DNA of 64,000 nt from Streptomyces sp. NBC_00154. Its GTDB lineage: Bacteria; Actinomycetota; Actinomycetes; Streptomycetales; Streptomycetaceae. Shown here in pieces: positions 4,932 through 64,000 of this stretch. The stretch spans positions 1,928,501 to 1,992,500 of the forward strand of contig NZ_JAPEMI010000001.1 of assembly GCF_026342835.1 (NCBI RefSeq), read 5' to 3'. Position numbers and translations under genes: made by a program. How positions within the stretch are numbered: the stretch's first letter is position 1; every line of letters begins with the position of its first letter. The notes below the pieces were generated by a model. It searched no databases and was not told the origin of the DNA. It worked only from the letters and a program-made list of their open reading frames with translations.

Positions 4932-7271
4932 CTACTTCTTACGATTCGCGGGGGAACCGGCCGCTTGCTGCTTCTTGAAACCGATGTCCTGGTAGTGGGG
5001 CACTCCGAAGCCGAAGGCGCCGACGTTCACGAGCTTCCTGTCGGTGGCCACCAGCTGCGGACGCTGATAGAGCGGAATCGACGCTGCGGCGGCCCAGATG
5101 CGGGCGTCGGCCTGCTTCATCAGATCCTGGGCGGCGCCTTCGTCGAGCTCGGAGAGCGCCTGGTCGAAGAGCTGGTCGATGTGGTCCGTACCGACGCGGG
5201 TGTAGTTCTGCTCGACGAGCAGCGAGCCGTCGGTGGCGGGCACGGGCTTGGCGAAGATCGGCCGGTCGTCGGTGGCCGGGTAGGCGGTGGCGGGCCAGGA
5301 GTACAGCGCCAGGTCGTAGGCGCCCGAGGCGACATGGTCCTTGAAGTAGCCGGCGTCCGCCACCTTGATGATCTCCGTGCGGATGCCGATCGAATCGAGC
5401 ATGGCCGAAATCTTCTCCCCGACGGTCCGCAGAGACTCCGAGCCGGGACCGGACGGCAGGACGAAACGCAAGGTCAGCGGCTTGCCGTCCTTGCCCAGCG
5501 TGTCGCGGACGGAGTCGGCGGCCTTGGCCGGAGCCGCGGGGGCCGCGGTGCCCATGGGGGCATAGGCGCCGGCGGCACCTCCCGGCCCGCGGTTCTGTCC
5601 GGTGACCTTGCCGCGGGAGCTCTCGGCGGTGCTGGTGTCGGCGACGGCAACGGCGGACGTGAAGGCGTCCGCCTGGCGCAGCAGGGCGGCGCTCTGGACG
5701 GCGGCGGCCGGGGCGGGGGCGAGGACGTGGCCGGGGCTGGTGTCCTCGTCCACGCGCGGCTTGTTGTCGTCGCCGGGCTTGTTGTCGTCGCTCTTGTCGG
5801 CCTTCGTGGCCTTGTCGGCCGTCTCCGCCTTGCCGTGCTCGCCTCCCTTCACCTTCTCGCCCTTGCTGCCCGCCTTCGTACCGTCGGACTTCTTCTTCGT
5901 CGCACCGCCCGGCGTCCAGCCGGCTTCGGCCAGCAGCGCCTGCGCCTTCTTGGTGTCCTGCTCGCCGAGTGCGGCGCTGTTGTCCTGATATCCGGGCTGC
6001 CCGGCCAGCGCCAGGTGGCTGCCGAGCGGCGCGGCGGGCAGGCCGAGCGGCCCCAGTACGGTGTCGACGAGCTCCTGACGGTTGAGGGCGCGGGCCACCG
6101 CGCGGCGTACCCGTTCGTCGGCGAGCGGCCCGGACTCACCGTTCAGCGCGAGCTGCGTGTAGGCGGGCTCCAACGACTTGCGTACGACATAGGCGCGCAG
6201 CCCGTCCTGCTCGGTGGCGTACACCTCCGCCGCTTTCCGGGTCTTCTCCCGACTCGCCCGGGCGGCCGCCGCGGCCTTCTCGTCGGAGCCGTGCGCCAGG
6301 GCCCAGGAGCGCAGTGCGGCGGCGGGGCCGATCTCGGAGCCGGGGCCGTGGGTGAGCGGCTGGCCGTTCTCTCCCTTGTCACGCGCCGCGGCCACGATCC
6401 GGTGCGCCGCTGCGGCGTCGATGTCGGCGATGTCGACCTTGCCGCCGACCAGTGCCTGGACTCGGTCCTGCGGCTTGACCGCCCGGAAGACCAGCGAGTC
6501 GAGCTTGGCCGGGCTGCCCCACCAGTGCGGGTTGCGGGTCAGGGTGACGGCGCCCGCGCTCTTGTTCACGCTGCGCAGCCGAAACGGTCCTGAGGTGGCC
6601 GCGAGGGTGGTGCGCGCCCGGTCGTTGAAGGCGGTCGGGGAGCTGGTGACCTGCTTCGGGTACAGCGGGGAGAAAAGGGAGCGCCAGTCCCCGTACGGCT
6701 TGGCAAAGGTGACCCGGACCTCCAGGTCGGTCTTGCCGCGCTCGATCCGCTCGATCCGGTCGTAGCCGGCGTTGCGGGCGGTCCAGAACGCCGAGTCCTT
6801 GCCGCTCAGCGCGCGCCACTGGGCGACGAAGTCGGGGGCCCCGATCTCCCGGCCGTCGCTCCAGACGGCCTGCTGGTTGAGCCGGTAGAGCACGACCTGC
6901 TTGGGCTCGCGCTCGATGACCTTCGCCGATTCCAGATAGTCGGAGTTCATGTGGGGGGTGCCCTTGGTGTCCAGCGGGAAGAGCGTCGGCAGCAGGGCCC
7001 CGGTGATGCGCGTGGTCGTGGCGTCGGCGTCCGCCTGGAAGGCGTTGAAGGTGGTGGGCATCGCATCGATCGCCCAGTTGACCGTTCCTCCGTCGGCGAC
7101 CAGGTCCCGGCCGGCGGGGGCGACATCCTGCGGCACCACGATGGCGACGGTGGTCACTCTGTCCGAACTGGTGCACCCGGCCAGCGCGGGGATCGTGAGC
7201 ACACCCGTCGCGAGGAGCGCGAGCGAGCGGCGCTTTCGGACTGTCCCGCGCGGGACGCCGACGTGGGACAT
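4932..7271 (-). CDS. Large ABC transporter family substrate-binding lipoprotein (peptide-binding, SBP_bac_5)
   Basis: 779 residues, longer than the usual 530-600 for this family. Sec lipoprotein signal MSHVGVPRGTVRKRRSLALLA with lipobox LAGC (Cys32). The two halves of a family-5 binding fold are visible: GGTVNWAIDAMPTTFNAFQ through SPLYPKQV and RVRRAVARALNRQELVDTVL, then LTLRFVLPSGPG through LYSWPATAYP near the C-terminus. They are separated by about 140 residues of Lys/Asp/Gly-rich low-complexity sequence (KKKSDGTKAGSKGEK onward, then AAAVQSAALLRQ). The insertion most likely loops out of the second lobe. No permease or ATPase gene is adjacent, so it either serves a transporter encoded elsewhere or has a sensing role. 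The ATG at 7271 is the first plausible start before the signal peptide. Confidence 0.88.
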   Translation of the reverse strand: MSHVGVPRGTVRKRRSLALLATGVLTIPALAGCTSSDRVTTVAIVVPQDVAPAGRDLVADGGTVNWAIDAMPTTFNAFQADADATTTRITGALLPTLFPLDTKGTPHMNSDYLESAKVIEREPKQVVLYRLNQQAVWSDGREIGAPDFVAQWRALSGKDSAFWTARNAGYDRIERIERGKTDLEVRVTFAKPYGDWRSLFSPLYPKQVTSSPTAFNDRARTTLAATSGPFRLRSVNKSAGAVTLTRNPHWWGSPAKLDSLVFRAVKPQDRVQALVGGKVDIADIDAAAAHRIVAAARDKGENGQPLTHGPGSEIGPAAALRSWALAHGSDEKAAAAARASREKTRKAAEVYATEQDGLRAYVVRKSLEPAYTQLALNGESGPLADERVRRAVARALNRQELVDTVLGPLGLPAAPLGSHLALAGQPGYQDNSAALGEQDTKKAQALLAEAGWTPGGATKKKSDGTKAGSKGEKVKGGEHGKAETADKATKADKSDDNKPGDDNKPRVDEDTSPGHVLAPAPAAAVQSAALLRQADAFTSAVAVADTSTAESSRGKVTGQNRGPGGAAGAYAPMGTAAPAAPAKAADSVRDTLGKDGKPLTLRFVLPSGPGSESLRTVGEKISAMLDSIGIRTEIIKVADAGYFKDHVASGAYDLALYSWPATAYPATDDRPIFAKPVPATDGSLLVEQNYTRVGTDHIDQLFDQALSELDEGAAQDLMKQADARIWAAAASIPLYQRPQLVATDRKLVNVGAFGFGVPHYQDIGFKKQQAAGSPANRKK

Positions 7272-52112: not shown

Positions 52113-52315
52113 CGGCCCAGCGTACCCAAACGCGATAGATCGCGACTAGGGCCTGTCCGGGGCACACTCCGAGCTGATCCGCGCAGGACGACGAGCACAT
52201 GCGGTGCTCGAACTGAGCCTTACCTCACAGGTTCGTCCCGCTTGCGGCGTTCTACCCTGGTGGGTGCGCTGCCCAAGGGTGGTCAGCCGCTGTCGCCGAG
52301 TGAGGAATGGCCGTA

Positions 52316-53983
<1,668 letters not shown>

Positions 53984-54061: not shown

Positions 54062-55048
54062 TCAGGGATCCAGCAGTCCCGACGTCGCGAGCAGATAGCC
54101 GAGTTGGGCGCGGCTGTTGCTGCCCAGTTGTTCCGAGACCTTCCGCATGTGTTCGGCGACGCTGCGACGGCTCATGCCGAGCCGGCGGGCGATCGACGCG
54201 TCCGTCTCGCCGCCCACGACCGCCAGCAGAATGGTGCGCTGGAGGTCGGACATGATGACCGAGGAGCGCAGCGGCGCGCTGTCGGGGCGGATCGGGACGG
54301 AGCGGGACCAAGCGTTGTCGAATTGCCGGGCGAGCAGGCTGACCAGGGCCGGGTGCTGGACCCGCAGCGCCGTGTGCGGCTCTTCGGGGACGGGTACGAA
54401 CGCGATCTCCCGGTCGCAGACGATGACCCGGTCGACGACTTCGGCGACCGTCCGTACCTCGGCTCCGGCCGACGTCACCTGCTCGATGTAGGAGAGCGTC
54501 GCCCGGTGCGAGCGGACGGTGTGCTGGTAGATCGTCCGCTGCCGCACTCCGCGCCGCAGCATCCGCAGATCGCGGGGCAGCGCCTCGCCGAGGACGTGCG
54601 AGGGGCGGCCGCCGCCGGGCTGTGCGGTGAGCAGCTCCTCCTGGCAACTGCCCACGGCCGCCTCAAGTGCCTTGCTGATGACGGCTCTTCCGACGAGACG
54701 GGTGAGGACGGGCTGTTCGAGCCGGTGCACTTCCGCGTACAGCCCCTCGAACGCGGCGAGACTGGCGCGGACCGCGCGCAGGTTGCGGCGCTGCTGGGCG
54801 ATCTCCTCCTCGATGGGGCCGAGCGCGGCGAACGATGCCGTCTCCGGCGGCACGGGGATCAGCGAACCGGGTGCGTCCCGGTCCGTCACCACCAGCTGCA
54901 GGGCCCGTAGACAGGCGGGCGCCCCGTCCTGCGGAAGGCTTCCCTGCATGAGTGCGCGCCGGTACGCCGCCAGGGCCGTCTCGCAGGGACGGTCGGGCGA
55001 CGATTCGCGGCAATCACATGCCCGTGGGCCGGATTGATCGTCCTTCAC
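54062..55048 (-). CDS. LuxR-family (C-terminal HTH) regulator of the PKS-NRPS cluster
   Basis: 328 residues. The last 65 residues form a LuxR/NarL HTH: DLQRTILLAVVGGETDASIARRLGMSRRSVAEHMRKVSEQLGSNSRAQLGYLLAT (core TDASIARRLGMSRRSVAEHM). The first 250 residues are helical with no receiver, PAS or AAA domain (SFAALGPIEEEIAQQRRNLRAVRASLAAFEGLYAEVHRLE in part), as in short orphan regulators inside biosynthetic clusters. GTG 55048 makes the gene start 4 bases from the divergent MFS ORF, so leaderless transcripts or the ATG at 54949 are possible. Likely a pathway-specific switch for the adjacent cluster. Confidence 0.88.
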   Translation of the reverse strand: MKDDQSGPRACDCRESSPDRPCETALAAYRRALMQGSLPQDGAPACLRALQLVVTDRDAPGSLIPVPPETASFAALGPIEEEIAQQRRNLRAVRASLAAFEGLYAEVHRLEQPVLTRLVGRAVISKALEAAVGSCQEELLTAQPGGGRPSHVLGEALPRDLRMLRRGVRQRTIYQHTVRSHRATLSYIEQVTSAGAEVRTVAEVVDRVIVCDREIAFVPVPEEPHTALRVQHPALVSLLARQFDNAWSRSVPIRPDSAPLRSSVIMSDLQRTILLAVVGGETDASIARRLGMSRRSVAEHMRKVSEQLGSNSRAQLGYLLATSGLLDP

Positions 55049-55052
55049 AAGT

Positions 55053-56525
55053 ATGCAGATTACATTTGTGCAAACGGCTCGACATCAGAGGTCGTGGTTG
55101 CTCGACGAGTATGTCCGGGTGAAGCTCGGCATCGACCAGACCAACAGCCATTCCGACGACGGACCGGACCGCACGGCGCTCGGCGAACGGCGTTATCGAT
55201 TCCTCGTCGCCGGATACGCCATCTCTTCGTACGGCACCTTCCTGAATATGGTGGCGCTCAATCTGTTCGTCTATGAGACGACGGGCCGGGCGATCGCCAT
55301 GGGGCTGTTCATGGCGGTGCGGCTGGGGTCCGGCTTTGCCGCCGGCCTGACGGCCGGCACGCTGCTCGCGCGCTTCACCGCCAAGACCGTGATGCTCTGG
55401 ACGAATGTGGCACAGGCGGCGGTGATGCTGCTGCTGGTCCTTGCACCGGACGGGCTGCGGACGGGCGCACTGGTGGCCGTCTCGGTGGTGGTCGGTTCCT
55501 GCGGCACGCTCTTCATGGTGTCGCTGCGCAGTTCCATTCCCGAGATGGTGGGCGCCGACCGGCGCGGCTGGGCGAACTCCCTTTCCATTAGCGGGCGTTC
55601 GCTGGCAATGGTGGCCGGCTTCGCGTCGGCCGGTGTGGTCGTGTCGCTGGTCGGTTACACCGCCGCGTTCGTGGTGGACATGGCCACCTTTGTGATCTGT
55701 GCCGTGACGGTGGCGCTGCTGCCGATCGCGGGCGGAGGCAGAGGGAAGAACGCTCCGCCGGATTCGGAGGGGGATTCCGGCGGGCGCACCGAACAGGGTG
55801 CGGCGGCCGCGGAGAAGACGGGGCGGCGGCGGATACCCGTCGCGTTCGTCGCGCTGGCCGCCGCGCCCGGTCTCGGCCTGATGGTGGCGCTGCGCGGGGT
55901 GGACGCGTTCGGTTCGTCGTCCCACAACGCCGCGCTGCCGATCTACTCCACGGAGCTCGACGCCTCGCGCCCGGCCGTGTTCGTCAGCGCCTTCTGGTGC
56001 CTGTGGGCGCTGGGGAACGTCCTCGCGCAACAGGTGATCCAGCGGTACGCGAAGCGCACCGGCCGATCGGTGGGTGCGCTGGGCTTCGGTTACGGCACGA
56101 TCGTGATGTCCGGGGCGTTCATCCTCGCGTTCGCGGGGTTCCCGTTGGTGGCGACGGGAGTGATCGCACTGGTCGCGGGAGCGGCCGACGGGCTCACGGA
56201 GGTCTCGTACACCTCGCATCTGCAGACGCTCTCCGCCGATCTGCGCGGGCATGCGTTCGGGCTCTCCGCGACGTTCGAGAATCTTGGCTTCGGCGTCGGA
56301 ATGATCCTTGTCGCAGCGGCACTTGACCGCTACAGCCCGCTGACGGTCGTCGGATGGTCCCATGGCGCTGCGATGGTGGTCGCGGTGGCGTTCCTGCTCC
56401 GGGTGGCGGGGCTGCGGAGGGGAGAGAAGCGCGGTGGTGGAGACGGCGAGGGAGCCGGAGCAGGAGCGGGGGAACGAGAACCGCATCGCGGTGATCGGGA
56501 TGGCGCTGAGGTTCCCGGGAGCTGA
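55053..56525 (+). CDS. MFS exporter of the PKS-NRPS cluster
   Basis: 490 residues at maximum. About 12 membrane segments: RFLVAGYAISSYGTFLNMVALNLFVYETTG, AMGLFMAVRLGSGFAAGLTAGTLLARFTAKTVMLW (motif-A-like region) and others, with a cytosolic loop of Gly/Glu/Arg at about 230-265. This fits EntS-like exporters of siderophores and peptides. The start is uncertain: ATG 55053 has no ribosome-binding site, while TTG 55098 (AGAGG 6 bases upstream) and GTG 55119 are alternatives, and they would leave room for a divergent promoter. The 3' end overlaps the PKS gene by 92 bases, so transport and synthesis are co-expressed. It probably exports or confers immunity to the product. Confidence 0.85.
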   Translation: MQITFVQTARHQRSWLLDEYVRVKLGIDQTNSHSDDGPDRTALGERRYRFLVAGYAISSYGTFLNMVALNLFVYETTGRAIAMGLFMAVRLGSGFAAGLTAGTLLARFTAKTVMLWTNVAQAAVMLLLVLAPDGLRTGALVAVSVVVGSCGTLFMVSLRSSIPEMVGADRRGWANSLSISGRSLAMVAGFASAGVVVSLVGYTAAFVVDMATFVICAVTVALLPIAGGGRGKNAPPDSEGDSGGRTEQGAAAAEKTGRRRIPVAFVALAAAPGLGLMVALRGVDAFGSSSHNAALPIYSTELDASRPAVFVSAFWCLWALGNVLAQQVIQRYAKRTGRSVGALGFGYGTIVMSGAFILAFAGFPLVATGVIALVAGAADGLTEVSYTSHLQTLSADLRGHAFGLSATFENLGFGVGMILVAAALDRYSPLTVVGWSHGAAMVVAVAFLLRVAGLRRGEKRGGGDGEGAGAGAGEREPHRGDRDGAEVPGS

Positions 56526-59500
56526 CACCCCCGAGCAGTACTGGCGCGACATCCGGGCGGGCGTCTCGCACGTGCGCCGGTTCACCGGGGCCGAGTTCGC
56601 CGCCGCCGGGATACCGGAGGCGGAGTACGGGGCGGCGGGGTTCGTCGGGGCGTCGGCGCTGCTGGGCGGCAACGGGCACGACGGCATCGACGGGTTCGAC
56701 GCCGGGTTCTTCGGGATGAGCGGGCGCGAGGCGGCCCTCACCGATCCGCAGCAGCGGCTCTTCCTTGAGTGCTGCTTCCACGCCCTGGAGGACGGCGGCT
56801 ACGCCGGTCGCGACGAGTCGCTACGGACAGGGGTGTACGGGAGCGCCGGTTACCGTCTCTACTCCCTGCACAGCTATCTCGCCGAGAACCTGGCCGCGGA
56901 GGCACGGTCCGGCGACTGGATGACCGTCAAACAGGTCCAGGTCGGCAACTACCCTGATTTCACCGCCAATCGGGCCGCGTTCCGGCTCGGTCTGACCGGT
57001 CCCGCGGTCAATGTGGCGACGGCATGTTCCAGTTCGCTGGTCTCCGTCCATCTGGCCTGTCAGGCGCTGCGCGCCGGTGACGCCGATCTGATGCTGGTCG
57101 GCTCGGCGGCGCTGCATCTGCCGCAGGTGACGGGGCACCGCCATGTGAAGGGTTCCACGCTCTCCCGGACCGGTGCCGTGCGGGCCTTCGACGCGGGTGC
57201 GGACGGCACGGTCGGCGGCAACGGTGTCGCCGCCGTCCTGCTGAAGCCGCTGGACCGGGCGCTCGCCGACGGAGACACGGTCCACGCCGTGATCCTGGGC
57301 TCGTCGGTCACCAACGACGGTGCGGCGAAGACCGGTTTTGCCGCACCGGGTGTCGCCGGGCAGCGAGATGCCGTACTGGGCGCGCTGCGGTCCGCCGGGG
57401 TCCCGGCGGAATCGGTGGGTTACCTGGAGGCGCACGGCACGGGCACGTTCAAGGGCGACCCGATCGAGTTCGCCGCCCTCACGGAGGCGTTCCGCCGCCA
57501 CACCGACCGGACCGGGTTCTGCGCGCTGGGCTCCACCAAACCTGCCATCGGACACCTCGACAGTGCGGCGGGGCTGGCCGGGCTGATCAAGGCGGTCCTG
57601 GTGCTGCGGCACGGGATCGTCCCTCCGCTGGTGAACTTCCGGGCGCCGAATCCGGCGCTCGCCGTCGAGTCGAGTCCCTTTGTCCTGCCGACGCGGGAGA
57701 CGGCGTGGCCGGTGCCTGGGGAGGTACGGCGAGCCGGGGTGCACTCCATCGGGATGGGCGGTACCAATGCGCACGTGATTCTGGAGCAGGCGCCCATGGT
57801 GCGGGAGAAGGAGCGGGGGTGGGCCCCGGGACGGAAGCGGAACGTTTCCTCGGATACTCCGTCTCTGCTGCCGCTGTCCGGCGCGAGCCGCGAAGCGCTG
57901 GTGGCGTACGCCCGCGCATTCCGCGAGCGGCTGGCACACGGGCCCGGGGCCGCTCCCGCCGATCTGCTGGTAACGGCCGCGCTGGGGCGGCGCCATCTGC
58001 GCCACCGGCTGGTCGTGACGTCCGAGGATCCGGTGGCGGGGCTGGACGCGTTCCTGGCGGGGGCGGCCCCGCGCGGCGCGTACGACGCCGGGGTCGTCGA
58101 GCAGGAGCCGGAGCGGCCCGTCTTCCTCTTCAGCGGGCAGGGCGGCGGACATCCGGGCATGGCCGCGGAGCCGGCCGCACGCTTCCCCGTCGTGGCCGAG
58201 GTACTCGCCTCCTGCGCCCGCGTGTACGAGGAGGAGACGGGCAACGGCGACTTCCTCGGCCGGGTCGTGCACGGCCACGGCCCGGCCGCCTGGACCACCG
58301 ACTTCGCGCAGCCCGCCCTGTTCGCCCTCCAGATCGCCCAGGCCCGCCTCTGGCAGCAGCTCGGCGTCACGCCCTCGCTGGTCGCCGGGCACAGCGTCGG
58401 CGAGTACGCGGCGCTCTGCGTGGCCGGGGCGCTGAGCATGGAGGACGGGATGCGGCTGCTGTGCCGGCGCGGCCGGCTGATGCAGGAGCGGTCGGAGACC
58501 GGCGCGATGCTCGCGGCGTTCGTACCGGAGGCGCGAGTAAGCGAGTTGCAGGCCGCCGTCGAGGGGCTGGAACTCGCCGTGGTCAACGGGCCGGCCCACC
58601 ATGTCGTCGCCGGGCCCCCGGAGGCGGTCGAGGCCGCGCGCGCCCTGCTGGCGGCGGGCGGAGAGGCGTACGAGCCACTGGCCGTGGACCGGGCCTTTCA
58701 CACCGCCCTGCTCGATCCGGTCCTCGACGAGCTGCGGACCGCCGCGGAGAAGGCCGGGCTGCTCCCGCTCCGTACGCCGTTCGTCAGCGGGCTCGACGGG
58801 GCGGTGCGGCACCCGGGGTGGCGGCCCGACGCCGACTATCTGGTCAGGCAGGCACGCCGGACCGCCGACTTCCACGCGGTGCTGCGGGCCGTCGGGTCCA
58901 CGGGATCCGCTCGACCCACCGGCCCCACCGGCGTGGTCCTCCTCGAACTCGGCCCCTCCGCCACGCTGACCGGGATGGCGCGCCGGGTGCTGCCGGGTGC
59001 TGCCCCCGTACCGACATCGGCGTTCCGGCACGCGGTGGCCCGGCTGCACTGCGCGGGGGTGGCCGTCGACTGGGCGGCGCTGCTCGCGGGGTGCGGCGGC
59101 CGACGGGTGCCGCTGCCGACGTACCCGTTCCAGCGTCAGTCCCACTGGGCCGGTCCGCCACCGGTCCCCACCACTTCGTACGTACCCGAGCGCACAACGG
59201 AGGATGGCATGACCGAACAGGCCGTACTGGACCGGGTTCTGGCGCTTACCGCCGACCACCTCGGCTATCGGCCGTCAGAGGTCGGCGCGGACAGGACGTA
59301 CGTCGGACTGGGCGCCGACTCCCTCCAACTGATCGGCATGGTGCGACAGTTGGAGGCCGAATTCGGTACGGAGATCGCGATACGGGAGATACTGGAGGAG
59401 GCGGGCACCCCCCGGCTCACGGCTCGCCTGATATCGACGCGTACGGCCCGGGAACCGCAGGTGGCGGACGAGCCGGAACCGGTCTGCGCGACGCGCGCCG

Positions 59501-59631
59501 AGGTAGAGGAACTGACCCGTCAGGTGGCCCAGTTGGCCCGTAACCAGGCCGCGATGCTCACCCAGCTCTCGGATGCCGTGGCCCTGCTGACCGGCATCTC
59601 GGCCACCGCCCCCGAGGGGGACCGCCGATGA
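56434..59631 (+). CDS. Type I polyketide synthase module KS-AT-ACP
   Basis: 1065 residues. KS at about 15-440 with Cys198 in NVATACSSSL, EAHGTGTFKGDP and IGHLDSAAG giving the Cys-His-His triad. AT at about 565-870 with LFSGQGGG, Ser654 in GHSVGEYAAL and RAFHTALLDPVL, whose AFH favours malonyl over methylmalonyl. ACP at about 925-1005 with phosphopantetheine Ser963 in GLGADSLQL. No KR, DH, ER or TE, so the product stays a beta-ketoacyl-ACP, the right substrate for the downstream aminotransferase. A C-terminal helix (EVEELTRQVAQLARNQAAML) looks like a docking element. GTG 56434 is used with GGAG upstream. Confidence 0.95.
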   Translation: MVETAREPEQERGNENRIAVIGMALRFPGADTPEQYWRDIRAGVSHVRRFTGAEFAAAGIPEAEYGAAGFVGASALLGGNGHDGIDGFDAGFFGMSGREAALTDPQQRLFLECCFHALEDGGYAGRDESLRTGVYGSAGYRLYSLHSYLAENLAAEARSGDWMTVKQVQVGNYPDFTANRAAFRLGLTGPAVNVATACSSSLVSVHLACQALRAGDADLMLVGSAALHLPQVTGHRHVKGSTLSRTGAVRAFDAGADGTVGGNGVAAVLLKPLDRALADGDTVHAVILGSSVTNDGAAKTGFAAPGVAGQRDAVLGALRSAGVPAESVGYLEAHGTGTFKGDPIEFAALTEAFRRHTDRTGFCALGSTKPAIGHLDSAAGLAGLIKAVLVLRHGIVPPLVNFRAPNPALAVESSPFVLPTRETAWPVPGEVRRAGVHSIGMGGTNAHVILEQAPMVREKERGWAPGRKRNVSSDTPSLLPLSGASREALVAYARAFRERLAHGPGAAPADLLVTAALGRRHLRHRLVVTSEDPVAGLDAFLAGAAPRGAYDAGVVEQEPERPVFLFSGQGGGHPGMAAEPAARFPVVAEVLASCARVYEEETGNGDFLGRVVHGHGPAAWTTDFAQPALFALQIAQARLWQQLGVTPSLVAGHSVGEYAALCVAGALSMEDGMRLLCRRGRLMQERSETGAMLAAFVPEARVSELQAAVEGLELAVVNGPAHHVVAGPPEAVEAARALLAAGGEAYEPLAVDRAFHTALLDPVLDELRTAAEKAGLLPLRTPFVSGLDGAVRHPGWRPDADYLVRQARRTADFHAVLRAVGSTGSARPTGPTGVVLLELGPSATLTGMARRVLPGAAPVPTSAFRHAVARLHCAGVAVDWAALLAGCGGRRVPLPTYPFQRQSHWAGPPPVPTTSYVPERTTEDGMTEQAVLDRVLALTADHLGYRPSEVGADRTYVGLGADSLQLIGMVRQLEAEFGTEIAIREILEEAGTPRLTARLISTRTAREPQVADEPEPVCATRAEVEELTRQVAQLARNQAAMLTQLSDAVALLTGISATAPEGDRR

Positions 59632-62600
59632 ACCACACGGACGGTGCCGCCGCCGAGGTGGCCCGCGCGGCGGAGCTCTCGCGACGCCTGACCGAGCAGC
59701 TCACAGCCGCTGCTACCCCCTCCCCGTACCGCTCCCCCTCCCCCGCTGCCGCTGGCGCACAGCACGGACCCCGCCTCGTCGTGGATCCCGCCGCCGGCAT
59801 GGCCGGGGCGGGCGCCGACGCCGCTCAGCGCACGCACACCGCGTCCCTCGTCCGGCGGTTCACCGAGCGCACCCGCACCTCGAAGGAGCTGGCACAGCAG
59901 CATCGGCCGGTGCTCGCCGACAGCCGGGCCGTCGTCGGGTTCCGCCGGGCCACCAAGGAGATGCTGTACCCGATCGCCGCCCGGTCCGCGCACGGGTCAC
60001 GGCTCACCGATGTCGACGGCAACGACTACACCGACATCACCATGGGCTTCGGCGCCCTGCTCTTCGGGCACGAGCCGGAGTTCGTCACCGATGCCGTACA
60101 GCGCCATCTCTCGCAGGGTCTCCGGTTCGGTCCCCGCTCCCCCGACACCGGTGAAGTGGCAGCGCTGCTGGCCGAGGTGACGGGGATGGAGCGGGTGGCG
60201 TTCGCGAACTCGGGTACGGAGGCCAACTCGGCCGCGGTCCGGCTGGCCCGGGCCGCGACCGGGCGCGACAAGGTCGTCATGTTCCGCGGTTCGTACCACG
60301 GGCACATCGACTCCGTGCTCGGCCGCCCCGGCGGTCCGGGCGGCCGGGGCGCCGTGCCCGTCTCACGCGGCATCCCCGCGAGCGCCGTCGCCGAGCTGAT
60401 CGTGCTGGAGTACGGCAGCCAGGATGCCCTCGACACCATCGACGCGCTCGGTGACACCGTGGCGGCCGTCCTCGTCGAGCCCGTCCAGTGCCGCAACCCC
60501 GCACTCCGCCCGGCCGACTTCCTGCGGTCGCTGCGCGACCTGACTGCCCGCCGCGGCGTCGTGCTCCTCTTCGACGAGATGCTGACCGGTCTGCGCCCGC
60601 ACCCGCGCGGCGCCCAGCACCACTTCGGCGTCGTCCCCGACCTGGCCACCTATGGCAAAGCGCTCGGCAGCGGCTTCCCGATCGGCGCGATCGCGGGCCG
60701 CGCCGACATCCTCGACGGCGTCGACGGCGGTCTCTGGCAGTACGGGGACGACAGCAGACCCCCGCACGAGACCACCTTCTTCGGCGGTACGTATATGCAG
60801 CACCCGCTCTCGATGGCGGCGGCGCGGGCGGTGCTCACCCACCTCAAGGAGGAGGGCCCCGGTCTCCAGGAGCGGCTGAACGCCCGGACCGACGCGCTCG
60901 GCGACCGCCTCAACCGCTTCTTCCGGGACGAGGAGTTCCCGCTCGAACTGGCCCACTTCGGCTCGATGTTCCGGTTCACGCACCGCGCCGACATGGAGCT
61001 GCTCTACCACCACCTCCTGCTGCGCGGTCTGTACGTCTGGGAGTGGCGCAGCTTCTATCTCTCCACCGCGCACACCGACGACGACGTGGCGGCGGTCGCC
61101 GCCGCCGTGGAGGGTTCGCTGCGCGAACTGCGCGACGGCGGCTTCTTCCCGTCGGCGAAGCGGCCCGCCCGGCCGCTGCCGGCACCGCGCACCCGCCCCG
61201 CCCCCGACCTCGGCGTCTACTTCTTCGGCGACTACCCGGAGACCGCGGACACGGCCAAGGCGTACGACAGCGTCATCGAGACCGCCCGCTTCGCCGACGA
61301 GCGCGGCTTCAGCTCCGTCTGGCTGCCCGAGCGGCACTTCCACTCCTTCGGCGGCCTCTTCCCCAACCCGGCCGTACTCGCCGCCGTCCTCGCCCGTGAG
61401 ACCGAGCGGATCAGGATCAACGCGGGCTCGGTCGTCCTGCCGCTGCACGACCCGATCCGGGTCGCCGAGGAGTGGTCGGTCGTCGACAACCTGTCCGGCG
61501 GGCGGGTCGGCATCGGCTGCGCCACCGGCTGGCACGCGCAGGACTTCGCCCTGCACCCGGACCGGTTCGAGGACCGCCGGGAGATCGCCTTCTCCCACCT
61601 CGACGACGTCCGCCGGTTGTGGGCCGGCGAGTCCGTCGCGCGGCGGACGGGCGAGGGCACCGACATCGGCGTACGCATCCATCCCCGCCCGGTGCAGGCC
61701 GAGCCGCCGATGTTCCTGGCCACCTCCGGGCAGCGTTCCTCGTACGGGGAGGCGGCCCGGCGCGGGCTGGGGATCGTCACCAACCTCATGAGCCAGACCG
61801 TGGCCGAACTGGCCGCGAACATCGACCACTACCGGCGGGTGCGCGCCGACTGCGGACTCGATCCGGACGGCGGCCGGGTGACCGTCCTGGTCCACACCTA
61901 CCTCGGTACGGATCACGCTGCCGCGCGGGCCGAGGCGCTGGAGCCGATGAGTCGCTATCTGCGCTCGTCGCTGCTGATGCGGTCGGCCGCCACCGCGCTC
62001 GGCCGCAGCCCCGAGGACGTGGCGACGGCGAGCGAGGACGACCTGGACTACCTCTTCCGCCGGGCGTACGACCGGTACTGCGACCAGCGGGCCCTGATCG
62101 GCACCCCGGAGAGCTGCGCCCCGCTCGTCGACGCCCTGCACAGGGCCGGGGCTGACGAGATCGCCGCGCTCGTCGACTTCGGGCTGCCCGAGGAGCGGAT
62201 GCGGGCGGGGCTGGAACAGCTGGATCTGCTGCGGCGCCGCACCCGGGAGCGGAAGACGCCGGAGACGCAAGGGTCGAAAGAGGCACAGGGGCCGCAAGAG
62301 GCACAGGACATCACCGCGCCCGCCACCTCCGCGCAGCGGCGGCTGTGGCTCGCGGCCCGGCTGCTCGGCAACTCCGCCGCGTACAACGAGACCCAGGCGG
62401 TCCGCCTGCACGGCCGGCTCGACGAGTCCGCCCTCCGGGTCGCCCTGGACGGGCTGGTCGCCCGCCATGCCGGGCTGCGGACCGTGTTCCGGGCCGGCAG
62501 CGGCGACGAGACCGTGGTCCAGGTCGTCAGGCCCGGGCTGCGCATCCCGCTCCTGGTGACGGACGCCCGGGCGCAGTCCCCCGACGGGGCCGACCGGACG

Positions 62601-64000
62601 ATCGCGGCGGCGCTCGCCGAGGAGAGCGGGCGCGGGTACGACTTGGCCGCGGGACCGCTGTTCACACCCCGGCTGATCCGGCTCGCGGACGACGACCAGG
62701 TGCTGCTGCTCGGCATGCACCACATCGTCACCGACGCCCACTCCGCGGGGCTGATGACGAATGACCTGGAGGAGCTGTACCGGGCGGCGGTGGAGAACCG
62801 TGCGCCGGTCTTCGCACGGCCTGCCGGCACGACGGCCGGTGCACCGGAACCGCCCCGGGACCCGGCCGATCTCACGTGGTGGCGCGAGCAGTTGGGCGAG
62901 AAGCCACCGGTGCTCGAGCTGCCCACCGACCGGCCGCGCGAGCGCCGGGTCGCGGGGCGCGGCAGGGCGGTGGCCGTACGGGTCGACCAGGAGCGGACCG
63001 TGCGGTGGCAGGAGTGGAGCGGGGAGCAGGGCGCCACACTGTTCGCGACGCTGTGCACGGCATGGCAGCTGGTGCTGCGCGGGCGGTCGGGGCAGGACGA
63101 GTTCGTGCTCGGGTCCACCTTCGGGCGGCGCACCCCCGAGACCCGGGACACGGTCGGCTTCCATGTGGCGCTGCTGCCGCTGCGGGTGTCGCTGCCGGAC
63201 GGTACGGACGCTGCCGATGCGGTACGGGCCACCGGGCGCGCCCTGCGCGAGGCGGACGAGCGGCAGCTGGTCGACCTGGACGCCCTGCTCGTCGGGGCGC
63301 ACCCGGACCCGGGCAACCCGCGCCCCCTGATCACCGTGTCGGTGGACCTGGACAACGAGACGCTGTCGCGGATCGACCTGCCGGGACTGCGGGCCGAGGA
63401 GGTGCCCGCCGGGACGGAGTCCGCCCCGCTGGAACTGGCCCTGATGGCGACGCGTACCGCATCGGGCCTGCGGCTGCGGCTGCGCTACGACGCGGATCTG
63501 TTCGACGCGGGGACGGCACGCGGGTATCTCGACGAGCTGGTCGGGACGCTGGAGTCGATGACGGGAGGTGGCAGGGCCACCGGGGACGAACCACCGCGCT
63601 CCACCGCGGACGCGCTCCGGGACGTCTGGGAGTCCGTCCTCGACGTCCGCGGCTTCCCCGCCGAGACCAACTTCTTCGACCTCGGCGGCAATTCGATCAC
63701 CGCGATCCGCCTGGTCAACCGGGTGCGGGACGCGCTCGGTGTCGACTATCCGATGGCGGACTTCTTCTCCGACGCCACGCTGCGGGCGATGACCGACCAG
63801 CTCGCGCCCGAGCCCGCACCCCCCGGGGAGGACGTCGAGATCGTCGACCGAGCGCCGGTCAGCGACCAGCAGGCCCGGATGATCGCCGGACACCACTCCG
63901 TACCGCACTCCGAGTTGTGGAACATCCCGACCCGGATCACCTTCACCGGCGCGCTGGACGTGCCGGCCCTGCGGTCCGCGCTCACCGAGCTGCTGGCCCG
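59628..64000 (+). CDS. Hybrid synthetase AMT-MOX-C-PCP-C (open at window end)
   Basis: 1457 codons, no stop in the window. The ATG overlaps the PKS stop (ATGA). N-terminal helix, then a class III PLP aminotransferase at about 95-510 (MLYPIAARSAHGSRLTDVDGNDYTD, GTEANSAAVRLARAATGRDK, Lys344 in YGKALGSGFPIGA). A luciferase-like flavin monooxygenase follows at about 525-870 (FFGDYPETADTAK, ERHFHSFGGLFPNPA, HDPIRVAEEWSVVDNLSGGRVG, CATGWHAQDF). A condensation domain at about 900-1300 has HHIVTDA at 1031-1037, with Ala for the usual Gly. PCP at about 1325-1395 has Ser1356 in LGGNSI, and a second C domain starts at about 1405. No A domain lies between C and PCP. Likely role: amination of the beta-ketoacyl chain, alpha-oxidation, then peptide coupling. 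Confidence 0.95.
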   Translation, partial: MNHTDGAAAEVARAAELSRRLTEQLTAAATPSPYRSPSPAAAGAQHGPRLVVDPAAGMAGAGADAAQRTHTASLVRRFTERTRTSKELAQQHRPVLADSRAVVGFRRATKEMLYPIAARSAHGSRLTDVDGNDYTDITMGFGALLFGHEPEFVTDAVQRHLSQGLRFGPRSPDTGEVAALLAEVTGMERVAFANSGTEANSAAVRLARAATGRDKVVMFRGSYHGHIDSVLGRPGGPGGRGAVPVSRGIPASAVAELIVLEYGSQDALDTIDALGDTVAAVLVEPVQCRNPALRPADFLRSLRDLTARRGVVLLFDEMLTGLRPHPRGAQHHFGVVPDLATYGKALGSGFPIGAIAGRADILDGVDGGLWQYGDDSRPPHETTFFGGTYMQHPLSMAAARAVLTHLKEEGPGLQERLNARTDALGDRLNRFFRDEEFPLELAHFGSMFRFTHRADMELLYHHLLLRGLYVWEWRSFYLSTAHTDDDVAAVAAAVEGSLRELRDGGFFPSAKRPARPLPAPRTRPAPDLGVYFFGDYPETADTAKAYDSVIETARFADERGFSSVWLPERHFHSFGGLFPNPAVLAAVLARETERIRINAGSVVLPLHDPIRVAEEWSVVDNLSGGRVGIGCATGWHAQDFALHPDRFEDRREIAFSHLDDVRRLWAGESVARRTGEGTDIGVRIHPRPVQAEPPMFLATSGQRSSYGEAARRGLGIVTNLMSQTVAELAANIDHYRRVRADCGLDPDGGRVTVLVHTYLGTDHAAARAEALEPMSRYLRSSLLMRSAATALGRSPEDVATASEDDLDYLFRRAYDRYCDQRALIGTPESCAPLVDALHRAGADEIAALVDFGLPEERMRAGLEQLDLLRRRTRERKTPETQGSKEAQGPQEAQDITAPATSAQRRLWLAARLLGNSAAYNETQAVRLHGRLDESALRVALDGLVARHAGLRTVFRAGSGDETVVQVVRPGLRIPLLVTDARAQSPDGADRTIAAALAEESGRGYDLAAGPLFTPRLIRLADDDQVLLLGMHHIVTDAHSAGLMTNDLEELYRAAVENRAPVFARPAGTTAGAPEPPRDPADLTWWREQLGEKPPVLELPTDRPRERRVAGRGRAVAVRVDQERTVRWQEWSGEQGATLFATLCTAWQLVLRGRSGQDEFVLGSTFGRRTPETRDTVGFHVALLPLRVSLPDGTDAADAVRATGRALREADERQLVDLDALLVGAHPDPGNPRPLITVSVDLDNETLSRIDLPGLRAEEVPAGTESAPLELALMATRTASGLRLRLRYDADLFDAGTARGYLDELVGTLESMTGGGRATGDEPPRSTADALRDVWESVLDVRGFPAETNFFDLGGNSITAIRLVNRVRDALGVDYPMADFFSDATLRAMTDQLAPEPAPPGEDVEIVDRAPVSDQQARMIAGHHSVPHSELWNIPTRITFTGALDVPALRSALTELLA

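Follow-up and report, generated by a model that had tools for sequence, protein, structure and literature searches.

A gene cluster in Streptomyces sp. NBC_00154 appears to encode an aminopeptidase-inhibitor pathway, a reading in which we place moderate confidence. Its product would be a small peptide opening with a 3-amino-2-hydroxyacyl unit, and an M18 zinc aminopeptidase encoded directly behind the assembly line would protect the producer and would have been kept by former producers. The cluster begins in the window, by which we mean the whole 64,000-nucleotide stretch of DNA that was analyzed (positions 1,928,501 to 1,992,500 of contig NZ_JAPEMI010000001.1, in a genome of 10.4 Mb), and runs past its edge. 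Positions are given in window numbering, carried on beyond 64,000 where necessary; adding 1928500 gives the contig position.

The assembly line consists of two proteins, one from a polyketide synthase (PKS) gene and one from a nonribosomal peptide synthetase (NRPS) gene. In the first, Pfam searches identified KS (amino acids 16 to 402), AT (563 to 820), and ACP (933 to 999) domains and found no KR, DH, ER, or TE domain. The second carries an aminotransferase domain (AMT; 115 to 469) and a luciferase-like monooxygenase domain (MOX; 538 to 844), followed by a condensation domain (C1), a PCP, and a second condensation domain (C2). The E-values (1e-50 or lower for KS, AMT, MOX, and C, 2e-41 for AT, 2e-10 for ACP, and 1e-14 for PCP) are so low that these calls are not due to chance. 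HHxxxD is kept in both condensation domains, as is the serine in the ACP and the PCP. The PKS gene starts with GTG at 56434 and overlaps the NRPS gene by ATGA at 59628 to 59631. A preliminary description of this DNA had given the KS-AT-ACP module without reductive or thioesterase domains, the AMT-MOX-C order, the GTG start, and the ATGA overlap correctly; it had named the domains but missed the PCP and the start of C2 within the window.

The AMT and MOX domains were compared against all PDB sequences. The best match of the AMT was the mycosubtilin AMT, MycA (E = 4e-126; 51% identity over 402 aligned residues), and the next family was that of the glutamate semialdehyde aminomutases (E = 7e-54). 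The domain is a class III aminotransferase, and its pyridoxal phosphate lysine, Lys344, located where the preliminary description had put it, aligns with a lysine of the mycosubtilin AMT. The MOX is full length, matched PuwE best (E = 2e-96; next match, 1e-25), and scored 429 bits against TIGR04020, for which the cutoff is 244. Both domains thus belong to the families expected of such a pathway and not to unrelated ones. Four sequence features of AMT-MOX systems making 3-amino-2-hydroxyacyl units are present, namely, a nonreducing KS-AT-ACP, a MycA-type AMT, a PuwE/TIGR04020-type MOX, and a C domain after the MOX. By homology, a beta-amino, alpha-hydroxy unit, as previously proposed, is a well-supported prediction and the best reading of the module. 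Separately, we observed related MOX domains (about 53 to 58% identity) without an AMT part in very long frames, mostly of 3,400 to 4,400 amino acids, in many Streptomyces strains (e.g., G018:C6:260876-261964); these probably serve a different NRPS or PKS family.

When domain annotation was carried beyond position 64,000, a step that the preliminary description had foreseen, an M18 aminopeptidase, a thioesterase, an SDR, and a separate A-PCP protein were found (Table 1), the M18 being the most informative neighbor. The M18 enzyme is complete, and alignment to the residues in PMC3472314 identified its metal ligands (H87, D237, E272, D317, and H411), the catalytic E271, and the P1 lysine (K345), which passages of that source tie to acidic substrates. 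We surveyed 392 Streptomyces genomes for AMT-MOX. Close relatives (class I) occurred in 23 genomes, and a second type, defined by an AMT identity of 67 to 74% (class II), occurred in 34, with one genome (G287) holding both. The AMT-MOX logic does occur in an actinomycete, as had been stated, and is no rarity among Streptomyces strains. Scanning GTDB genomes yielded 22 loci, some from strains also represented among the other loci.

The M18 gene stood directly 3' of the line in all 34 class I loci reaching that far (16 from named strains, 17 further loci, and our own; 31 distinct); four loci whose contigs end before M18 (L041, L044, L046, and L051) are outside the M18 counts. All 11 producers checked showed an ATGA overlap between M18 and the NRPS gene. 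Cluster-type M18, called at an E-value of 1e-200 or lower, was found in 42 of the 392 genomes: in 23/23 with a class I line versus 19/369 others (Fisher test, 5e-26, with relatedness not corrected). In one of these genomes (G126), line and M18 lie on separate contigs. A housekeeping M18 with 63 to 69% identity to the cluster copy was present in 76/76 genomes tested, and the two types formed distinct clades with support of 100/100 (the identical rows L104, L107, and L109 were left out of the last tree). The distances of M18 and AMT-MOX were correlated (r = 0.80; n = 31; 0 of 5,000 permutations). Fumarase genes flanked 14 class I loci, including our own, and none were seen within the fetched flanks of 14 class Ib loci or of six class Ia loci of the other subclade (classes defined below), where short contigs could hide some. 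Since class Ib and the second Ia subclade show no fumarase yet carry M18, the association of M18 with the line is not confined to a single chromosomal site. Two features expected of self-resistance by a duplicated target are present: an M18 copy in the cluster beside a housekeeping copy elsewhere, and coinheritance with the biosynthetic genes. As a side observation, the sole M18 of G047 matched in two separate pieces (G047:C1:4085851-4087224), which may reflect a frameshift or an insertion.

The 392 genomes also held 20 orphan M18 copies, one of them an additional copy in G267. Thirteen lay between the two fumarase genes with the PKS and NRPS genes gone, as LuxR-MFS-M18 (six copies), LuxR-M18 (one copy), or M18 alone (six copies). 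A fourteenth (L158), at a contig end, had the same downstream genes, and six were at other sites. We searched the DNA upstream of the 14 orphans, on the plus strand, for relics of our own NRPS gene. Ten of the 14 matched a block beginning at base 5343 to 5348 of that gene, and four of the matches (E = 7e-22, 7e-16, 2e-15, and 8e-15) are beyond doubt; the best hit was 1.4e-5 in 20 shuffled controls and 4.7e-5 with unrelated genes of the same genome. The matching segment is C2 coding sequence and is recognizable in lines lacking M18 (20 to 27 of 51 residues identical; eight loci). Because it is coding sequence shared with such lines, the relics derive from an NRPS gene rather than the other way round, and the biosynthetic genes were once present and then lost. 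We also considered that the segment might be an older M18 promoter that the NRPS gene later overran, and rejected this since it is C2 coding sequence common to M18-less lines. PKS relics amounted to two short matches (L130 and L160), which were not counted, and no relic of our own cluster was found at an E-value of 1e-3 upstream of the six orphans at other sites. Five of the orphans at other sites (L129 and L165 to L168) form a second group, one clade in the M18 tree, without relics of our own NRPS gene.

The orphans are spread over several places among the cluster copies in the M18 tree. Their dN/dS ratios (nonsynonymous to synonymous substitution rates) of 0.10 to 0.24 in 10 pairs indicate purifying selection, and all 20 copies preserve nine catalytic or pocket residues. 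Retention, selection, and intact residues together argue more for a protective than for a product-making role of M18.

In the alignment of the relics, short blocks (GCACCGCCNCTTTCNCGCAG, CTTGCG, and GGGTTATCG) are conserved amid diverged DNA. Allowing two mismatches, the first motif was found 188 to 397 bp upstream of M18 in all 13 producer rows of our own clade (12 distinct) and likewise in all 13 fumarase-site orphans with enough upstream DNA (L158, which has too little, is outside this count), against a background of 2 hits per 200,000 bases. Beside the housekeeping M18, there was only a five-mismatch match. Across 11 aligned producers, only 17 of 1,829 codon columns conserve A or T in the wobble position, and the relic blocks, which comprise 63 codons, contain 14 of those 17 (p = 5e-19); leaving out the block at the gene end, the figure was 11/14 (p = 6e-16). 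This constraint at the DNA level suggests that the embedded blocks are probably an M18 control element within the NRPS gene.

Domain maps were made for 18 of the 23 class I genomes and 13 of the 34 class II genomes (L115 to L127). Class I loci have the order MFS, KS-AT-ACP, AMT-MOX-C-PCP-C, and M18, and class II loci (the 13 genomes plus Catenulispora, Kineosporia, G088, and G326) lack M18 and have the order MFS, KS-AT-ACP, and AMT-MOX-C-A-PCP-C. In a midpoint-rooted tree, the 38 class I rows form one clade (Shimodaira-Hasegawa-like approximate likelihood ratio test [SH-aLRT] support, 98). Because the nearest tree neighbors of class I keep the A domain in line, the tree places the loss of that domain and the arrival of M18 on the same branch. 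Within class I, 12 loci (Ia) have an A-PCP protein with the threonine-like code DFW[S/N]VGMVHK, which in our own reads DFWSVGMVHK. Fourteen loci (Ib) have an unfamiliar code, DM..LG..., mostly DM[SCA]YLGL[IV][YH]K (e.g., L036, 17833 to 19302), and the clusters of six loci (Ic), two of them identical, lack an intact A gene. Two loci were placed in no A-type class: L037, whose contig stops after the SDR gene, and L052, in which no A domain was found.

A decayed A-PCP remnant was observed between the thioesterase and GDSL genes of a class Ic locus (L097, 15537 to 15971; G347), from which the A gene of class Ic is judged to be in the process of being lost. An off-cluster A protein 63 to 69% like our own, in a frame of less than 1,200 amino acids, was found in 4/4 Ic versus 1/11 Ia genomes tested (Fisher test, 0.004, with relatedness not corrected); its presence in all four Ic genomes suggests that the threonine A domain may act in trans. 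An assignment of our own locus to bestatin or amastatin, products that the preliminary description had mentioned, was rejected: the A code is threonine-like and not one for Leu, as bestatin would require, or for Val/Asp, as amastatin would. The class II lines were observed to be very small, comprising an MFS gene plus a PKS gene and an NRPS gene whose last domains are C-A-PCP-C; their A code is mostly DALILGVVLK. Short peptides resembling bestatin or amastatin are candidate products of these lines. Among 10 neighbors scanned at seven loci, no shared resistance candidate was found beside class II-type lines.

We propose the following pathway. The KS-AT-ACP protein would extend an acyl starter by one malonyl unit, the AMT would exchange the beta-keto group for an amine, and the MOX would hydroxylate the alpha carbon. 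C1, the PCP, C2, and the separate A-PCP protein would then add amino acids, at least one of them probably threonine, and the MFS pump would export the product. The 3-amino-2-hydroxyacyl unit is expected to chelate the metals of zinc aminopeptidases. The cluster M18, which duplicates the housekeeping enzyme in diverged form, would shield the producer, whether by replacing the target as an insensitive version or by acting as a sink for the product or degrading it. In our own clade, M18 seems to have a private control element in the NRPS gene and so might be expressed, and passed on, independently of the genes for biosynthesis. Domain order, family membership, coinheritance, the retention of M18 after PKS/NRPS loss, and the constraint on the DNA were observed directly; the chemistry, the target, the protection, and a control role of the element are inferred from them.

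Several observations weigh against parts of this proposal. The module PCP is not accompanied by an A domain. A strain outside class I (G323; L114) has an AMT-MOX-C line without an in-line A domain and a threonine-like A domain nearby but no extra M18. Fixed differences between cluster and housekeeping M18 exist (e.g., at 318, 387, and 406 to 407), yet the key residues of the cluster copy are intact and class-specific changes are not concentrated near the active site (15/68 versus 77/436; p = 0.19), so that insensitivity is not supported by these comparisons. Nineteen genomes carry a cluster-type M18 without the line, for which another use is possible. Six of the relic matches are weaker (E = 3e-7 to 2e-4) and lie partly inside the control range, and in the unrelated-gene control, six orphans were hit at one recurrent place (1.7e-4 to 5.8e-4). 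This recurrence arises because the orphan upstream DNA is itself related, and the shared start base of the relics is therefore not independent evidence. The element is absent (three or more mismatches) from the class Ib loci, from the Ia loci of the second subclade, and from orphans at other sites. The first motif occurs once in our own genome at two or fewer mismatches, and each strand likewise had one match to a reversed control pattern. Finally, no sigma-70-like promoter was found in the element, so that we infer, rather than observe, any promoter function.

Four other explanations were weighed. The first changes only the manner of protection: M18 may hydrolyze or sequester the product instead of standing in as an insensitive target copy. 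The intact catalytic residues and P1 lysine and the lack of enrichment of changes around the active site would fit, whereas the amide after a beta-amino acid is, as a matter of general knowledge, not normally cleaved by aminopeptidases; we regard this version as unlikely, though worth keeping in mind. It is improbable, in our judgment, that M18 is a maturation enzyme that trims an N-terminal residue off a precursor to free the active compound. The ATGA overlap with the NRPS gene and the preserved key residues are in line with such a role, but no cluster gene was seen that would add an N-terminal cap, M18 is retained in 19/369 genomes without a class I line, and the 10 orphan pairs tested show purifying selection. 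We give equally little credence to a lipopeptide or other beta-amino product that is no aminopeptidase inhibitor, with the MOX inactive or acting elsewhere. Passages of PMC4219810 have iturin-family AMTs serving beta-amino fatty acids; however, the eight genes scanned contain no FAAL or loading domain, the MOX is full length and a close relative of PuwE, and the coinheritance of M18 points at aminopeptidases. That M18 is an ordinary peptidase gene of the site with an unrelated job, joined by the line through chance, is very improbable: six genomes do have it on its own between the fumarase genes, but the NRPS relics upstream of orphan M18 come from real C2 coding sequence, the M18 and AMT-MOX distances agree, and lines at other sites, which on this view should lack M18, have it behind them (14 Ib and six Ia loci with no fumarase in the fetched flanks).

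The self-protection proposal ties a recognizable chemistry to a concrete predicted target in a pathway that is apparently unstudied and yet present in 23 of the 392 sampled genomes. The series that starts with complete clusters and ends with a solitary immunity gene, and that includes scars and an embedded element, would be an unusually clear record of producers becoming immune nonproducers. More speculatively, and with doubt prevailing, the product could be a natural inhibitor directed at M18 aminopeptidases, the first of its kind to become known, and M18 could be an immunity gene with an embedded private promoter. Because of this promoter-in-NRPS layout, costly synthesis might be lost repeatedly with immunity kept, and the graded remnants (LuxR-MFS-M18 and M18 alone) might mark both past producers and present exposure.

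The remaining features of the locus are summarized in Table 1. The MFS gene upstream of the line is conserved across the class I and class II maps, and the LuxR-type regulator adjoins the line in some of the class I loci. The start codons of regulator and transporter are divergent, with 4 bases between them (55048 to 55053); their promoters must consequently lie inside each other's genes or elsewhere. At an E-value of 0.001 or lower, the condensation family had two matches in the whole genome, C1 and C2. A search confined to the eight genes that begin with the regulator and end with A-PCP found no FAAL or other fatty-acyl loading part.

Table 1. Features of the cluster in window numbering (the window ends at 64000)
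Feature	Position	Strand	Basis or remark
Class I fumarase gene	52307-53983		One flank of own cluster; the class II fumarase gene is the other
LuxR/GerE-type regulator	54062-55048	-	Pfam PF00196
MFS transporter, likely exporter	55053-56525	+	Pfam PF07690, E = 2.7e-26
PKS module KS-AT-ACP, 1,065 amino acids, no reductive domains	56434-59631	+	Pfam
AMT-MOX-C-PCP-C protein, 1,876 amino acids	59628-65258	+	Pfam; crosses window end
AMT domain, MycA type, Lys344	59970-61034	+	Pfam, PDB sequence match
MOX domain, luciferase-like, TIGR04020 (MupA/Atu3671), PuwE type	61239-62159	+	Pfam, TIGR04020, PDB match
C1 condensation domain, HHxxxD intact	62313-63563	+	Pfam
PCP (LGGNS), no A domain before it	about 63609-63797	+	Pfam
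C2 condensation domain, HHITADG intact	63843 to about 65177	+	Pfam; past window edge
Block 1 of putative element	64725-64766		Inside C2 coding sequence of NRPS gene, intact own cluster
Block 2 of putative element	64970-65072		Inside C2 coding sequence of NRPS gene, intact own cluster
M18 zinc aminopeptidase	65255-66565	+	Pfam, E = 1.4e-129
Type II thioesterase	66599-67306	+	Domain search
SDR	67303-68148	+	Domain search
Separate A-PCP gene	68178-70868	+	Domain search
GDSL/ricin-B gene	after A-PCP gene	-	Domain search

Bestatin, amastatin, and microginin begin with a 3-amino-2-hydroxyacyl unit and inhibit metal aminopeptidases. The product predicted here would share that start, and differs in the threonine-like A code. 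MycA of mycosubtilin synthesis, whose AMT is the best PDB match of ours, has no known MOX, and its product is a beta-amino fatty acid. According to passages of a review (PMC11078913), bestatin, actinonin, and amastatin inhibit M20, M17, and M18 enzymes. Among the titles and abstract beginnings listed from openly licensed PMC literature (in two listings, 20 of 165 and 20 of 160 matches), we found neither a bestatin, amastatin, probestin, or phebestin cluster nor an M18 or other aminopeptidase in a Streptomyces cluster; both are weak evidence, as subscription literature lies mostly outside. The closest architecture is that of the puwainaphycin synthetase of Cylindrospermum, in which passages of PMC4219810 give PuwE, and not PuwB as the preliminary description had it, as the PKS-AmT-Ox-NRPS protein and proposed maker of the 3-amino-2-hydroxy unit. 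Our line resembles PuwE in its nonreducing PKS module, AMT, MOX, and NRPS start. PuwE, however, is a single polypeptide fed, according to the same passages, by a FAAL and PuwB, whereas here there are two proteins, no FAAL in the eight genes, no A domain in the module, and an M18 downstream. The tychonamide and floridanemamide systems use the AMT-MOX pair for 3-amino-2-hydroxy residues, as passages of a preprint (PMC13252402) describe; they are cyanobacterial and make long peptides, and the main text of the preprint nowhere mentions Streptomyces. A self-protection reading suits the present cluster, since it holds a diverged, coinherited aminopeptidase. Self-resistance by a duplicated target enzyme is a known principle, and the M18 resembles such cases as an extra, diverged copy of a housekeeping enzyme that is inherited with the cluster. 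Its insensitivity is conjecture here, and it departs from the usual pattern in being kept by apparent former producers, together with an element embedded in the NRPS gene.

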